From Dacryopinax spathularia (taxonomy: Eukaryota; Basidiomycota; Dacrymycetes; Dacrymycetales; Dacrymycetaceae), in NCBI GenBank assembly GCA_037974965.1, contig JBBPFI010000006.1, positions 496,001-560,000 on the forward strand: a DNA stretch of 64,000 bases, given 5' to 3'. Positions 55,971-63,796 of the stretch are shown here, one piece after another (position 1 is the first letter of the stretch; each line of letters starts with the position of its first letter). The position numbers and the translations under genes were made by a program. The notes below the pieces were generated by a model. It searched no databases, was not told where the DNA came from, and saw only the letters and a program-made list of their open reading frames with translations.

Positions 55971-57825
55971 ATGGGACAGTACGATTTTGTGCCGACTATA
56001 CTATCCCGCTGTAAGCCGCTCATATCCACGAGCTTCTTGAGGGTGTACTTGTCAGTGTGCGTAGACGCCTCAACCTCCTTGTTCTTGTATGATATACTTT
56101 TGACTTTGGATGATGAGGTCAGTGAGTTCCTCAAAGCTCGGGAAGCATATATAACGTCTTGTGCAGGTAGCCTTCGTATGGAGGTTAGGCAACATCTGAA
56201 CTGCGAGGTCATTAGACACACTTCTTACTGCTTGGCCTCTAGTGCGAAATGGACGCTGCCAAAGCTCCTGTATTTATGGGTCAGGTATCCTGGCTTCCTG
56301 TCTCAGTTGTAAGCTGCCTTTGCCCAAACTCAACACTTTCGCTTCAGACGCTGAATGGAATCACAGATTCACATGCATAAGTGAGTAATCTCTCAAGGGG
56401 GAAATGCGTCTTTCTCAGGTCTGCCATTAGTATCGGTGTTTCCCATGTCCGGTGAAGTGGGTCGAGTTATGATTGCTGCGCCGTGCGGGTCTAATCAGCA
56501 TTTCCAGTTGTGTGTCTAAGGATTATGTTTCATAACGGCAAGGCAAAGTTGACACGGATCTTCAAGTTGCATCGGCTACAACCTATGGTACTCCACGTGA
56601 GCTTGAAGAGCGATTGCTTTGGGTTGGTTGGCTCATGGCATCAGTTGGTTGTATATCTGCGCAGCTACCACAGACGGGCTCGTTCTGCTCCGCGTGCTTG
56701 CCTTGGTAAAGGGGAAAAAGAGATGTGCGTTGCTCCTTGCCTTCTTGGGAAGCACTTCACTGACGGGTGCGCAGTACGTATAGCCTTGATAAGCGTGTAT
56801 ACGGGTCAGTATCTCCCATCTGCCAGCCGACGACAACCTGACATCTCCATGCTTAGCGGTCTATGTGGTACGCAGTTCGCCCCCGCTCGAGCCTCTTCTT
56901 CTTACAACGTGATCTGAAAGATATTGCTTGCTCTCCTTGGATATAACTACAGCGGATGGGCAACACGCTCAACCTCATGGCCGGAGAACTTGGGCTGCAT
57001 CCAGACGATGTATGTTGGAGGGTATCCCACAATGAGGATCGGTGCAGTCCTGGTTCCAATCGCAACGTGCGTGAAACAGTCTGCATTACGGGTGATTGCG
57101 CGTCTGACGGTCGCCCAGCGCGCCCATCATAGTGTTAAACAGTTGGTTTGCCGCACTGCAGGCGGCGATCTTGGCACGACTGACTTCGCGCACCAGTCAT
57201 GATCCTTGCCGGCGTGCTGTCCGTGGTCTTGCCCCTGGCGCGACAACAGAAAGGCTTGACACCATTGGTGGGAGTGCTATTGCGCGACGGTCTGGCTTAT
57301 TTCGTTATGTACGTGCCGACAGGCTCGATTTCATAATATGCTTGCTGAGGGATAACAGCGTGTTTGGTACGCTGTGATACATTGAAGGTTGATGCGTGGT
57401 AGACTTAGAGGAACTGTAGCCGTGTCCTTGGTGACGGCGGTCACTGGCCTGGTATACTACGACTCGCCGAGAGCGGTGTCACTTGGAGAGCCGTAGGTCT
57501 TCGACCGATACCGTCCTTCTTTGCCGCTAAGGTTGTTATAGGTGGTTTATGACCATCAGCCCTATCGCTGTGAGTAGCGAACGCCCTTCTGGCGAGAAGT
57601 GCTGTGGTGTTGACGATCGAATAGGCCGGTCGGCTCTTTCTGAACTTGAAATCAAGCATGGCGAAGCCTGAAGAAGCAGGGATAGTCATAGGCCTGGAGC
57701 CTATGCCGAAACGGTTCGAAACAGAGTCCGGGAGCACGTCGTGGAACACGGCTATTCAGTCTTCCAGCTCTACCGGCCAAAGGTCCGAAGGCGGGGTGTT
57801 CGAGGGCACGGTCGCGATGGTGTAG
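55971..57825 (+). CDS. DUF6533-family membrane protein, paralogue 1 (17 exons)
   Basis: Exons: 55971-56010, 56056-56117, 56167-56183, 56243-56308, 56367-56380, 56431-56456, 56508-56509, 56567-56596, 56645-56766, 56857-56867, 56921-57066, 57119-57141, 57197-57308, 57359-57366, 57420-57492, 57542-57569 and 57625-57825; 326 residues, all phases consistent. DUF6533 hallmarks are SLFLYDILLTLDDEVAFVW and KWTLPKLLYLWVRYPGFLSQ. Later helices include ATTDGLVLLRVLALVKG, ILLALLGYNYSG, IMILAGVLSVVLPLA, RDGLAYFVIVFAVSLVTAV and AAGRLFLNLK, followed by a cytosolic tail. Function unknown; GPCR-like fold suspected. Exon 7 is only two bases (TT) and exon 14 eight bases. Paralogue 2 at 61977 has nearly the same exon sizes, which supports this model. 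Confidence 0.8.
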
Positions 57826-58072: not shown

Positions 58073-59479
58073 TCATGTCCTCGTGCTTCCCCATTCGTTC
58101 CTCCGGGTGCTCCCAGCGCTGATCTTCGGCGGGGGAGGGAGTTCTTCGCCTGCCGCAGGCCAGGCAGGAACGGTCGGCGGCTCCTTTTCCGCCTCCCCAG
58201 CCCGATTCTGCGTACTATTGCTCGTTGCCGGCAGAGACGACTCCCACGTAAGAGGAAATGTCCTTCTTTGTCTCGACGCCCACGGAGCAGCAGTAACCAC
58301 CGGACCGTCCATCCCCACCTCTGCCGCCGTCGGTCCTCCGCCACCCTCCCCCGAACCAGCGGGATCTGCGGTCTCCGAGGGCCCGTCCTCCTGAGGCTCC
58401 TTCGCCTCCTCTTTCCAGTCCCACTCCAGCACTCCTCCCAGTGCCAAATGCTGCACCACCACTCTCTTTCCCAGAACTTCGGCATCGTACATCTTCCTGA
58501 GCCCGCTGAGGACTTTGGCCCATGTGAGGACACTGCTGGCTATGCTGTAGAGTTGTGGGGAGTGTTCGGCAAAAGGACCAGATTTGAGCGTTAGGACGCG
58601 GCGGATCATTTGCTCGTACAGGTTAGGTGGGGCTTGAGGTTCGAGCGTACTTGCGCTGGTCGGAGGCAGAGTACCGGTCAGCGAGTGCGGGTGCGAGTGC
58701 GTGGGTTGGTGTGACTGAGAGTGGGAAGCCAGCGAGAGGATGTATGACGGTGGTACTTCCGCGTGCAGGAGCTGAGCGGCACCTAGCATATATGGGAGGA
58801 AATGATAGTCGTCCAGTCCCCATACCCCATGGCTCCCCGCAGGCTCCAAACGATACCGATCTTGCAACATCCAGCATAGCTTTAGGTATCTTGGAAACAC
58901 GACTAGTGCCGTATGACGTTCTTCTTCCTGCGTCGGTGCCAGGAAGCGTAGGAGAGCGAGAGTGAGGAGGAAGAGGAGGAAGGAAAGTTCGTGTCCTGTG
59001 CCGTAGTCCATTCGAGTTTGATTGCCGAAACAGGCGAGGAGGTGCGGTGTTAGGTGGGGAATCGCTCCATGTAGATTGTCAGGCAGGAGTGAGGAGAGCA
59101 GGTCAGGCAGTGCTGAGGCAAGAGCGTTGTGGAATGTCCGGAAGGCCAGGTTACCATATCGTTGTGGTGTTGGTAGGGGCGGGATGTCGCGCGCGATGCG
59201 CTCAACGGCGTCCAACAATGCGACGAGCGACTGGATCGCTCCCGATGGGTGAGCCAACAATGGAGAGTCGAGCGGTACGTCTGCAGACGCCGCAGTGAGG
59301 TGTGTGAGGTAGAGCTGTAGCTCGCCATAGGAGGGTGTCGTCCGCCAGCGAGAGAGATCGACATCGTTCCTGATGCGGGGACGCGGTGGTCGAAGGTCGG
59401 GGAGCTGAGCAACGTCAACTCGCACGAGGTCAGGCAGCGAAGGAGTTGAGGAGGTGGTTGAAGATGTGGGTATGGACAT
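58073..59479 (-). CDS. PP2A phosphatase activator PTPA (Rrd family), single exon
   Basis: One uninterrupted frame of 468 residues (or 485 if the in-frame ATG at 59530 is used). Features of the PTPA peptidyl-prolyl isomerase fold are present: NDVDLSRWRTTPSYGELQLY, RYGNLAFRTFHNALA, LPHLLACFGNQTRMDYGTGH with the family motif DYGTGHE, FPRYLKLCWMLQDRYRLEPA, GVWGLDDYHFLPYMLGAAQL and PPNLYEQMIRRVLTLKSGPF. The last ~110 residues are a disordered Pro/Glu-rich tail. PTPA/Rrd proteins bind the PP2A catalytic subunit, help load its metal ions and act in nucleus and cytoplasm. The complete lack of introns is odd in this window. It lies inverted between the two DUF6533 paralogues. Confidence 0.93.
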   Translation of the reverse strand: MSIPTSSTTSSTPSLPDLVRVDVAQLPDLRPPRPRIRNDVDLSRWRTTPSYGELQLYLTHLTAASADVPLDSPLLAHPSGAIQSLVALLDAVERIARDIPPLPTPQRYGNLAFRTFHNALASALPDLLSSLLPDNLHGAIPHLTPHLLACFGNQTRMDYGTGHELSFLLFLLTLALLRFLAPTQEEERHTALVVFPRYLKLCWMLQDRYRLEPAGSHGVWGLDDYHFLPYMLGAAQLLHAEVPPSYILSLASHSQSHQPTHSHPHSLTGTLPPTSASTLEPQAPPNLYEQMIRRVLTLKSGPFAEHSPQLYSIASSVLTWAKVLSGLRKMYDAEVLGKRVVVQHLALGGVLEWDWKEEAKEPQEDGPSETADPAGSGEGGGGPTAAEVGMDGPVVTAAPWASRQRRTFPLTWESSLPATSNSTQNRAGEAEKEPPTVPAWPAAGEELPPPPKISAGSTRRNEWGSTRT

Positions 59480-61976
59480 GGTTGTCGCAGATGGGTAGTA
59501 TACAGTTGTTATGAGTGGACGTGTCGTCAATCACCACCGTGAGCAGTGCGAGGTCCAGCAGACCGTCTGCCGAGTCAGGGTCAACGTCGCCTCGGAACTC
59601 TGGAAGACGACTCCTTGGAATTGACCACCATCTTGTCTCGCACAACATCAATTCTCTGACGGCAACTAACGAAGCTACAATCTCTATATCCTTCTGCTGC
59701 TATCAAGAGCGCGAGATGCGAAAGTGCTGGCCGCCTTGCTTCAACGTCCAATGACAGACTAGTTTAGGACAGTCGACGTCTGTCAATGTCTCGCTGTCGA
59801 TCATGATCGACCATCATCGCCCGCGAGACACATTAAGACAATTCTGGTCCAACCAAGCGTTTGCTAATCCTGAAGGTTTCCTGGCGCCTGGAGATGGAGT
59901 CTGACTAGGCTGATTTCGCCCCTTGTGACCTTTGGGCTCTGCGTCCCTGGTCTTTGCAGGCTCATCCCCCCAACGACTTTTTCCTAATCATCACCTCCTC
60001 CCGCTTCTTCCCTCAGTGCCCTGCTCTCCTCGACCTACTCCCAAGCCTGCTTGATCAACGTCGAGGACCTCTCATTGGCCCTTAACAAGCGCATTGACGC
60101 GTTTGCCACCACCTCCCAGAAGACCGCCGTACGACGCCTCTAGGCTGGTTCGAATGGGGCGCTGGTCAACGAAGCCCTCGCGGGCATGCCGACGGACAAA
60201 TCCACTTACCTCGTCGTCGTCCTCCAGGCGGGCAATGTAACTTCCAAGACTGGCTCGGTGCTGGCCACCTCTTCTTCGAGCGCTTCAAGGAATATCGAAC
60301 GGGCGAACAAGAAGCTGGCTCGGAGCATCGCCTTCTGGACATCTTCTCTCTTTGCCTTCTGACGATACCTCCTTAAACGGACTTCGACTCTCGCGATACT
60401 CGATCCCCCTGAGCACCATGTGGTTGCAGCCACAGCAGGAGCAACATGGAGCGCATACATGTGTATCCGGTAATGCATGATGCCTAATTTTAGCTCGGGG
60501 ACGAACCAACCTTTGTCCCGAACTGCTCTACAAAATCACTCGCGATGACGGAAGATCCCGCCCATGTGGTACGCCCTGGGAACGAAGCCTCGACAACCAT
60601 CAGTTGAAGGAGCTGACAGGGCAGAGGCTGTGGACTATCCATGTGGACTTGGAGTGCTGAAAAGCTGAGTTGCAGGGATGGCCTCTGAACCATATGGTTC
60701 GGTAACAACGGCAATCTGATGACTTCGGTATGCTTCCAGAGCGCGCTGCAGTTCCCGAGCAAGTCGTTAATCCGCAGCAAGCCGATCATGTCAAAGCAGT
60801 ACTGTACTTATTCTGCGCAACGTCCCGCAAAGTCGACATGTGTCTGGATGTGCGGTACTCGACGGGAGCTGGCGCACCCAACCGAACTGGGTTGCGTACG
60901 AACGGCGTGTCTTCCGGAAGACAAGCTTCCGAAGCACGGGCGCGTGTCAGTTTCGCCTCTTGAGGAATTCCCGGACCTATCATGCGCGAGCACCGGTAAA
61001 TCCTCATTGCCTCATCTGTTGCGGCATCGCCAGAGACCCTATTCGCAGAAAGGTGAGGCATCAACTTCCGCGAGCGATTTCCAAGACTGATAAGGACGAT
61101 GAAGAGAATTTCCGTCGGTCTCGTACTCGGCTCGGCATCACCTGAGGCCTGCCGCCTGCATTACGCTGCTTGGAAGCAAGATCAACATCCGTGACTGTTG
61201 AACCGGCTGATCGCAATACTTATGCATCGCGGCGATCCAGGTCGATTCTGCTCTGATAATGCTATGGGAAGGAATCACGATGCCGTTCACGTGTCAACAT
61301 TTGAGCATATGCCCATCTTTCGGGCTTGGATGCAGACAGACTCGTCGTCGTGCACTCCATGCGGTTCACGAACCTGAAAGCTCATACCCGGGAGAGGCGC
61401 ACGTACCCTATCTACTCGGGAAAGCGGATTGATCATCGGGAACGCTACCAATCTCCACACAAGCCGGATAGGTACAGGGACGAACCTTACAAGCGCTCGC
61501 CACCTCTACGCAGATCCCTGGGCCCAGGGTACGCTCGATTTGGTCCTCGGCAAATTCTTCAGCAATAGCACAGTCAACATTGAACAGAAAGGCCATACTA
61601 TCACATGGGACACTGGCGTAAGGCTATCGGTCCGTCAACTACGGATTTCGCGCTGCCGAAAGCGGCTCTACTGAAGACTTCGGACCACTTTGCTATCACA
61701 TCGCCAACCTTCTATGTACGAGTCGCTTTCACGTCTTCTCTGGTGCCGCATGCCATGGCTATGAGCGCCAACATGTGCATGCCATTGTCGACTTCGGTTC
61801 ATACCAGCGGTCGCCGCCCATAAGAACATCGTGCTGAGTAGGCGGCTAGTCTGCGTCCAACGCTCCTTTGACATACAGCAAGCCCAACCACGGGTCCATG
61901 TGAGTCGATTGCGACTCGGGCGTTTTTATTCTGCTGCTGAACAACGTTGGTCTGGCTGTAGTTGGAGGTGAGCAGC
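59480..61976. other. Long region without intact gene between PTPA and DUF6533 paralogue 2
   Basis: About 2.5 kb. Frames of 60-120 codons occur on both strands but none shows a domain. A coding-like relic at about 60030-60360 is listed separately. The part 60500-61900 gives no recognisable protein in any frame and no terminal repeats were found. Confidence 0.5.
60030..60362 (+). pseudogene. Coding-like relic of unknown identity
   Basis: After a polypyrimidine-CAG that looks like a splice acceptor (near 60040), one frame reads ALLSSTYSQACLINVEDLSL, then NKRIDAFATTSQKTAVRRL, a TAG stop (60138-60140) and NEALAGMPTDKSTYLVVVLQ, ending at a TGA near 60360. Codon choice (C-ending Ala, Leu, Val, Thr) is like that of real exons here. 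I do not recognise the protein; a second frame near 60250 (FFERFKEYRTGEQEAG) is also suggestive. It may be a decayed gene piece or a chance open stretch. Confidence 0.3.
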
Positions 61977-63796
61977 ATGGGCCAGTACGACCTCGTACCT
62001 ACTTTAACGTCCCGCTGTATGCGTTCGACTGGGATCTCGATCTTCTTACGTGTCTCATCTGAGGTCTAGATGCATCTACCTCTTTGTTCTTGTACGACAT
62101 TCTTCTGACCTTGGACGACGAAGTGAGCGGTTGCTCTCTCCGCATGGTTGGAACGCACGCTGACGCCCACGGCCCAGGTCACCTATATATGGAGGTGAGC
62201 CGCTTACCGAAACATTTTCGGTACAGAACAGATCTTATTATATATCATAGCACGAAGCTCACGGGACCCAAAGCCCTCTACCTATGGGTTCGATATCCTG
62301 GCTTCATGGTGCAACTGTAAGCTATACCCTGCTCAGGGCCTAGATATACGCGCTCACTTCTGGGACAGATTCTCTTGCGTCTGTGAGATCGTTATTGCTG
62401 CAGTGGGTTGCAGACTCTCACGCTCGCACAGTGTCCATATTTTCGCTGTCGGATAAGGTAAGAGTGTCAGTTTGGACCGAAGTATCAAGCTGACGCGTCA
62501 TAGTTGTATGTAGCCAAATTCTCGCTACAGTCGGACTGCTGTTTACACCGAACAAAGCTGCATCGACTATAACATGTTTTTCTCTACGTGAGTCGCATGG
62601 TTACCCTAACCTAGAGTGCCCCTTATCCCACTTAGGTGGCTTTTCCTTACCTCAGCAACAACAGACGGTCTGCTACTGTTGCGCGTACTCGCACTAGTGA
62701 AAGGGCGAAGAGGGTGTAGGGAACTTCTCGTGATTCTCTTAACCGTTTGCTGAATTGTTCGGGACAGTGAGCGTCAGCTTACGCGTTGTCTACTCCGGTC
62801 AGTCACCCACCGATCGATCGGCCCAGTACTGACGCCTTGCAGTCGTCTACGTGGTGAGAGGTGGTGCGCAAACGGTTGTTTCTCCTGCTCACTCCCACTT
62901 GCGCCTCGCAAAGACGCTGTTGGTTCTACTGGCATACAACTACAAGGAATGGGCGGGCGATAAGGCCTCATGGGCCGAGAACCTGGGCTGCATCCAAACG
63001 ATGTATGTTGGGCCATACAGTCATCTCCAAGTGGGAAATGTGCTGGTGCCCATTGCATCGTACGTCCTGTCGTCTTGATTCAGCCTCGCTAGCTGAGAAC
63101 ACGCAGACTGCCCGTGATCGTGCTGAACAGTGTGTCACGCTTTTCCCAGCGCCCGGCACAGAATAACAGACGAACCTGACAGCAATCTTCCTCATCGTTG
63201 TCCTATGCGTTGTCGGGCCGAGTGTACGCCGAGAGACGACGTCGCCCACTTTGATGGAAGCGCTTGTTCGTGATGGACTGGTGTACTTTATCATGTAAGC
63301 CCTGATCAACATTGGTGACGGAGTAAGAAGCTGATGTAGCAATAGCGTCGCAGGTATATCCTAGCCCCAAACGGGTGGCATCCGTTCTTCTCATTCACTC
63401 ACCTGACCATAGGAACAACAGCGATGATGGGAGTCACCGGCCTGATCTACTGGAATGTACCGCGGGCCACTTCGCTGGGTGAATCGTATGTCGCCCACCC
63501 CGTATAACACATCGGGAGTATAGCAACTGACGCGCTTTCCAGGTGGTTTACAGCAATATGCTCGATGGCGGTAGGCATCCAACCTCTTCCTTCGTCACCA
63601 TGTCATCCTAAGCTGCATTCGACAGGCAAGCCGGCTCTTCCTTCATCTTCGGGCGACAGGAGCGAATAAAGACCTTCCACGGCCAAGCACAACGCAAGAA
63701 GACGAGTTGGTCATTGATACGACGCTTGCTTCGTCTTCAGCAGGGGCTCTCCATTCACGCCAGTTGGCTGTCATTCCCGAAGAAGGGCTGGATTAA
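61977..63796 (+). CDS. DUF6533-family membrane protein, paralogue 2 (in-frame TGA)
   Basis: Exons: 61977-62016, 62064-62122, 62178-62194, 62251-62316, 62369-62382, 62432-62457, 62504-62505, 62558-62587, 62636-62766, 62843-62853, 62914-63059, 63107-63129, 63183-63294, 63346-63353, 63413-63485, 63543-63570 and 63626-63796. Fourteen of the 17 exon sizes equal those of paralogue 1. The protein has SLFLYDILLTLDDEVTYIW, ALYLWVRYPGFMVQ, ATTDGLLLLRVLALVKG, ENLGCIQTMYVGPYSHLQ, RDGLVYFIIVAGTTAMMG and AASRLFLHLRATGANK. Exon 9 is nine bases longer than its counterpart and contains a TGA (62751-62753) in the frame required by both flanks. Either this copy is a pseudogene, or an alternative splice removes the TGA. 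Function unknown. Confidence 0.65.

Follow-up and report, generated by a model that had tools for sequence, protein, structure and literature searches.

Exons of one or two bases lie at the lower limit of what the spliceosome handles, and very few are known. The CYP621A genes of Fusarium contain a single-nucleotide exon, with 20 genes given in the abstract and 24 in the discussion of the study that describes them (Nelson and Syed 2026, PMC12940212). In Arabidopsis, the single-copy gene APC11 has a natural, constitutive exon of one nucleotide (Guo and Liu 2015, PMC4674806), and intronless copies of APC11 are regarded as derived (Yu et al. 2022, PMC8831610); the term '2-nt' is absent from the main text of the latter paper. 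The shortest exon given for P450 genes of Phanerochaete chrysosporium is 6 bp (PMC1184071), and passages of PMC8042270 and PMC12409088 contain nothing on 2-nt exons. No fungal 2-nt exon was named in a literature search across titles and the beginnings of abstracts, the coverage of which leaves out most subscription journals; within that coverage, two papers mention DUF6533.

Here we describe a predicted exon of two nucleotides in DUF6533 genes of Dacryopinax spathularia, which belong to a family coding for fungal membrane proteins. It would add a member to the class of sub-codon exons, of which 1-nt examples are already known in plants and Fusarium. Like that of CYP621A, it is an ultra-small fungal exon that recurs at a fixed position in many genes and was deduced because the phases do not match and the intron is about twice as long as normal, and in both cases relatives were used for comparison, in CYP621A an intronless one (PMC12940212). 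The CYP621A exon differs in being 1 nt long with a constant base, in being shared by orthologues within one ascomycete genus and in having transcript reads for two species (PMC12940212), whereas the exon described here has two bases of variable sequence, occurs in paralogues of one genome, is predicted from gene sequences and has relatives that carry each flanking intron alone. When the A of the APC11 exon was replaced by TT, the construct was spliced in Arabidopsis protoplasts as a 2-nt exon, as we propose here; it was mis-spliced in rice, however, and unlike the exons described here the natural APC11 exon is 1 nt long and belongs to a plant single-copy gene (PMC4674806). The sub-codon exons of APC11 and VPS55 in land plants are evolutionarily conserved, as here, with conserved donors, but they too are plant exons of 1 nt (PMC8831610). 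Fungal stwintrons (spliceosomal twin introns) likewise place two introns very close together and remove them in consecutive reactions; by the description in abstracts, one intron is inserted within a splice signal of the other and no exon lies between them, whereas here two coding bases would remain. A single genome provides at least seven natural versions, with different flanking signals and some variation in sequence, and sister genes have each intron alone; this makes it possible to test both the order of splicing and the proposed origin from two introns that share a codon. Automated gene prediction is unlikely to yield exons this small, and the annotation of these genes is therefore probably wrong.

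We analysed a window of 64,000 nucleotides that forms part of contig C6 and searched the genome (29.2 Mb, 24 contigs) for relatives; the short introns and the genes present are those expected of a fungus. The window contains a pair of DUF6533 genes on the plus strand, with gene 1 starting at 55971 and gene 2 at 61977, which score 51.5 and 53.4 bits, respectively, for Pfam DUF6533 (PF20151; cut-off 24.1). A PTPA (phosphatase activator) gene lies between them on the minus strand (58607-59530). The models of genes 1 and 2 cover the first 12 exons, with further exons lying beyond; their exon boundaries, like those of a third gene described below, were chosen by hand. The features are as follows.

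55971-56010, plus strand: gene 1 exon 1, 40 nt
56065-56117, plus strand: gene 1 exon 2, 53 nt
56167-56183, plus strand: gene 1 exon 3, 17 nt; length shared with genes 2 and 3 and both C2 genes
56243-56308, plus strand: gene 1 exon 4, 66 nt
56367-56380, plus strand: gene 1 exon 5, 14 nt; length shared with genes 2 and 3 and both C2 genes
56431-56456, plus strand: gene 1 exon 6, 26 nt, ending in phase 0
56457-56507, plus strand: gene 1 intron 6, 51 nt, GTGGGT..CAG; CTAAT branch-site match 13 nt before its end; no in-frame stop
56508-56509, plus strand: gene 1 exon 7, predicted 2-nt exon TT, bases 1 and 2 of a Phe codon
56510-56566, plus strand: gene 1 intron 7, 57 nt, GTGTGT..AAG
56567-56596, plus strand: gene 1 exon 8, 30 nt, opening with base 3 of the Phe codon, then Cys
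56645-56724, plus strand: gene 1 exon 9, 80 nt
56775-56804, plus strand: gene 1 exon 10, 30 nt
56857-56867, plus strand: gene 1 exon 11, 11 nt
56921-57066, plus strand: gene 1 exon 12, 146 nt, last in the model
61977-62016, plus strand: gene 2 exon 1, 40 nt
62070-62122, plus strand: gene 2 exon 2, 53 nt
62178-62194, plus strand: gene 2 exon 3, 17 nt
62251-62316, plus strand: gene 2 exon 4, 66 nt
62369-62382, plus strand: gene 2 exon 5, 14 nt
62432-62457, plus strand: gene 2 exon 6, 26 nt
62458-62503, plus strand: gene 2 intron 6, 46 nt, GTAAGA..TAG; CTGAC branch-site match 10 nt before its end; stop if retained
62504-62505, plus strand: gene 2 exon 7, predicted 2-nt exon TT
62506-62557, plus strand: gene 2 intron 7, 52 nt, GTATGT..AAG
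62558-62587, plus strand: gene 2 exon 8, 30 nt
62636-62715, plus strand: gene 2 exon 9, 80 nt
62768-62797, plus strand: gene 2 exon 10, 30 nt
62843-62853, plus strand: gene 2 exon 11, 11 nt
62914-63059, plus strand: gene 2 exon 12, 146 nt, last in the model

The original prediction had placed a TT exon at 56508-56509 between a 26-nt exon (56431-56456) and a 30-nt exon (56567-56596), separated from them by GT..AG introns of 51 and 57 nt, and every one of these figures proved correct for gene 1. The matching set that it had reported in the paralogue (TT at 62504-62505, introns of 46 and 52 nt) is also present, and the two genes are identical in length at all 12 modelled exons (40, 53, 17, 66, 14, 26, 2, 30, 80, 30, 11 and 146 nt), across which both reading frames are open. 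An automatic alignment of gene 1 against the gene 2 protein returned the hand-chosen boundaries, barring a 4-nt shift at exons 2/3 and a cut-off end. Tiny exons occur throughout both genes (55971-57066 and 61977-63059), with lengths of 11, 14, 17, 26 and 30 nt beside the 2-nt one that are equal between the copies.

At the junction, the upstream exon ends in phase 0 and the downstream exon requires two carried bases, so that the 2-nt exon keeps the frame. This reading was the sole structure found to fit all homologues under one exon pattern. From the gene sequences, we consider it highly probable that the two bases form a real coding exon, presumably constitutive, between two ordinary GT-AG introns inside one codon. 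Each about 50 nt long, intron 6 (phase 0) would immediately precede the codon and intron 7 (phase 2) would split it behind the second base. The two bases between the introns would be kept and the third would be supplied by the start of exon 8, so that the codon specifies Phe, Val or Tyr, followed by a conserved Cys.

When the genome was searched with protein sequence, exon matches appeared on the minus strand at C6:568925-569735, some 9 kb past the end of the window. They belong to gene 3 (C6:569990-569116, minus strand), which is oriented opposite to genes 1 and 2; identity to gene 1 is 67% for gene 2 and 69% for gene 3. Its exons of 40, 53, 17, 66, 14, 26, 2, 30, 80, 30 and 11 nt are all open and equal those of genes 1 and 2 at 11 of 11 modelled positions, and its 2-nt exon reads AG/TT/GTACGT at C6:569472-569471 (slashes mark splice junctions). 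The C12:970k gene has exons of 28, 136, 40, 2, 30 and 61 nt, in which the 40-nt exon corresponds to 14 plus 26 nt with the intermediate intron absent and the 2-nt exon is TT. This structure was picked automatically when the gene was aligned to a genes 1-3 profile with a splice-site matrix trained on 26 introns, the flanking introns being excluded. A one-intron reading of the same gene with the donor CTA/GTTGTA, obtained from an alignment without splice-site scores, was dropped: with a score of -7.3, this donor falls below all 26 training donors (2.3-12.0), and a 40-nt exon followed by TT matches gene 1 without any difference in length. Two neighbouring C2 genes (172.6-173.2k and 175.0-175.7k) both have exons of 51, 17, 66, 14, 29, 2, 30 and 73 nt, the first and last pieces ending where the query ends; the 2-nt exon is TT in C2:172k and GT in C2:175k. 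The C6:154k gene has TT at C6:154384-154385, and the C5:483k gene has TA at C5:483329-483328 but an ambiguous upstream exon and is counted as likely only.

Together, seven firm genes (1-3, C12, C2:172k, C2:175k and C6:154k) and one likely gene (C5:483k) have a predicted 2-nt exon at one shared codon, with the sequence TT in six of the firm genes, GT in the seventh and TA in the likely gene. Proteins of the seven firm genes and of one C13 gene all match DUF6533 (8/8; PF20151, 51.2-61.4 bits against the cut-off of 24.1), C5:483k not being among those compared. Four of the genes (C12, C6:154k, C2:175k and C5:483k) were first spotted by eye through the motif, whereas gene 3 and C2:172k were reached through homology and their 2-nt exons were seen afterwards.

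Relatives that lack one or both introns bear on the same codon. The genome has 54 Pfam DUF6533 hits, 10 of them outside the fetched set, and a junction state was assigned in 21 of 48 fetched genes, the remaining 27 being 24 in the C5 cluster, one other, C8 and C16. Both introns are present in 8 of the 21 (seven of them firm). The phase-0 intron alone, before the codon, is found in two genes, C13:746k (..GAC AGG/CTC TGC) and C13:749k (..GAC AAG/CTG TGT), where the Leu codon is contiguous with that for Cys, and the phase-2 intron alone in one, C1:2662k (GCA TT/C TGT). The other ten (C6:1458k, C6:1468k, C6:1477k, C2:2752k, C2:3018k, C17, C6:1303k, two on C4 and C5:1310k) have neither intron and are contiguous through the Cys. 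When ten of these proteins were aligned, this Cys was invariant and every row had a residue immediately in front of it. To us, the separate occurrence of each intron, at exactly the two positions that would enclose the exon, is the strongest argument for the predicted 2-nt exon. The phase-0 intron of C13:749k is apparently GC-AG, with the donor AAG/GCAACC; the neighbouring C13 copy has GTAAGC. No relatives were found in a scan of viral contigs.

Could an AG-NN-GT motif merely fall inside long introns? Of 781 real GT..AG spans of comparable length in the window, the two genes excluded, 60 do contain such a motif, 16 of them with a good donor and 3 with TT. However, each of the eight gaps contains exactly one AG-NN-GT that leaves two introns of at least 42 nt, always in one codon beside one conserved Cys and with both introns of normal length, and in gene 3 and C2:172k the gap was located by homology alone. 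In dinucleotide shuffles of each gap, an AG-NN-GT that leaves two introns of this minimum size arose in 13.3% of cases for gene 1, 12.6% for gene 2 and 7.6% for gene 3 (about 3% each with a good donor), or in 15.2%, 15.8% and 8.6% with a 40-nt intron limit; over all eight gaps, at least one motif appeared in 2.3-13.3% of shuffles, and one with a good donor in 0.3-3.2%. Because four of the genes were first noticed by eye, we did not multiply these values over the eight. Chance is thus an extremely improbable source of the motif, and the argument of the original prediction that the agreement of the two copies goes beyond chance is borne out. Its statement that one intron cannot keep the frame went too far. 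When the exon-8 acceptor is kept constant and donors may be GT or GC, gene 1 has eight in-frame single joins, including retention of intron 6 (donor score 5.6) and GCC/GTGCGG (5.1). Gene 2 has four such joins, led by AGT/GTCAGT (4.3) and a donor with a score of 3.4. A single intron after a longer exon 6, without any 2-nt exon, would mean that gene 1 retains intron 6, which is 51 nt long and open with the translation VGRVMIAAPCGSNQHFQ, and that gene 2 uses the fair donor AGT/GTCAGT 8 nt downstream to give SDKVRV-CIDY. This would require a separate solution for each gene, and gene 3 has no in-frame single join from its 26-nt exon under the same settings; retained intron 6 introduces a stop in six of the seven firm genes, all but gene 1. 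We also scored structures against profiles, using close relatives where these exist and keeping the residue neutral, with C12 and C6:154k run against a more distant set. The 2-nt exon was chosen in six of seven genes, C6:154k being undecided and the margin for C12 small, and blocking its acceptor cost score in all six (11.2, 8.0, 25.4, 1.7 for C12, 5.8 and 31.0). With distant profiles only, it was chosen in two of seven genes under each of two settings, most of the others ending before the junction, and under one of these settings a different structure with 18-, 27- and 30-nt exons was preferred for gene 3. Taken together, a single intron seems improbable, though less so than chance.

The phase mismatch from which the finding started could also mean that these are decaying, frameshifted copies in which TT is an artefact of a forced frame, and some relatives, for example C8 and C16, could not be read through. 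Against this, the modelled exons of genes 1-3 are all open and their substitutions are concentrated at third positions (38/18/73, 32/17/78 and 32/16/75 at first/second/third positions for the three pairs). Over their common coding part of 369 nt, dN is 0.21-0.23, while dS is saturated and not computable for two pairs and 2.9 for the third; decay is very improbable. The flanking introns are largely unalignable between genes when alignments are compared with shuffles; a few pairs keep slight similarity, with the highest z of 3.1 for intron 6 of genes 2-3 and of the C2 pair, so the gaps are not perfectly independent. With synonymous sites so diverged and flanking introns largely unrelated, the 2-nt exon appears to have outlived the synonymous sites around it, and its presence in seven firm genes and one likely gene points to conservation beyond neutral decay. 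A nested (twin) intron or recursive splice site, at which a gap of about 100 nt is removed in two steps and no exon is left, would suit both the nearly adjacent AG and GT and the double gap length. Whole-gap removal breaks the frame in every firm gene, however, and two bases are needed in the message. Every donor and acceptor of the two introns is uninterrupted, in contrast to a stwintron, and the junction reads AG/NN/GT rather than the AG/GT of a recursive site. In C2:175k, where the 2-nt exon is itself GT, AG/GT is present, but its use there would break the frame. We regard two-step removal that leaves no exon as about as unlikely as decay, and a retained 2-nt exon as the reading that these genes favour.

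The introns around the predicted exon are GT-AG and of normal size, with lengths of 46-58 nt among the firm genes; those of the likely gene measure 48 and 46 nt, and the other introns of the firm genes 45-87 nt (n = 41). Their donors match GTRNGN in 13 of 14 cases in the firm genes, with mostly modest scores for intron 7. In six of seven firm genes (6/8 including the likely gene), intron 6 has a CTRAY branch-site match 10-13 nt from its 3' end, which none of 1000 shuffles equalled, whereas intron 7 has a CTRAY match in three of seven (3/8 including the likely gene), a count reached in 11.5% of shuffles and so no clear excess. Compared with the other introns of the firm genes, intron 6 has CTRAY at 9-15 nt in 6/7 against 16/41 (Fisher p = 0.04, a post hoc and borderline difference) and at any distance from 5 to 32 nt in 6/7 against 19/41 (p = 0.10).

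The AG and GT on either side of the two bases are too close for simultaneous use, so the introns are probably removed one after the other. By intron definition, each short intron would be recognised as an intron and excised stepwise, and removal of either would leave the remaining one a normal junction. The exon definition of an unusual kind that the original prediction called for would then be unnecessary. Removal of intron 6 first may be the more likely order, a preference that we hold weakly. Beyond keeping the frame and supplying a residue, no special function of the exon need be assumed.

In a tree of 18 proteins (without C5:483k), genes 1-3 group together with support of 97/98 and the C2 pair with 99/99, while C6:154k groups more weakly (81/64) with the C1 gene that has only the phase-2 intron; the deep branches are without clear support. 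The exon would owe its origin, or its survival, to the meeting of both intron positions in a single codon. The introns may both be old, with losses of one or of the two together in different genes, or introns may have been inserted at these two positions again and again; the former would need fewer coincidences. One possible history, to which we would give somewhat less than even weight, is that the 2-nt exon is ancient in the DUF6533 family: a codon split by both introns would go back to the common ancestor of the deeply diverged paralogues, genes with one intron or none would reflect later losses, and the exon would persist through strictly ordered splicing in which intron 6, whose branch site is well placed, leaves first and thereby creates the donor context of intron 7. 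The exon would then be expected across many mushroom-forming fungi, missed in nearly all annotations.

Two further observations concern individual loci. Intron 6 of gene 1 (56457-56507) is the sole one among the seven firm genes that is both open and a multiple of three in length, so its retention could give an alternative product 17 residues longer. A dense DUF6533 array at C5:1183000-1656000 holds 34 of the 54 Pfam hits, and the few of its genes that were read differ from the window genes in intron positions.
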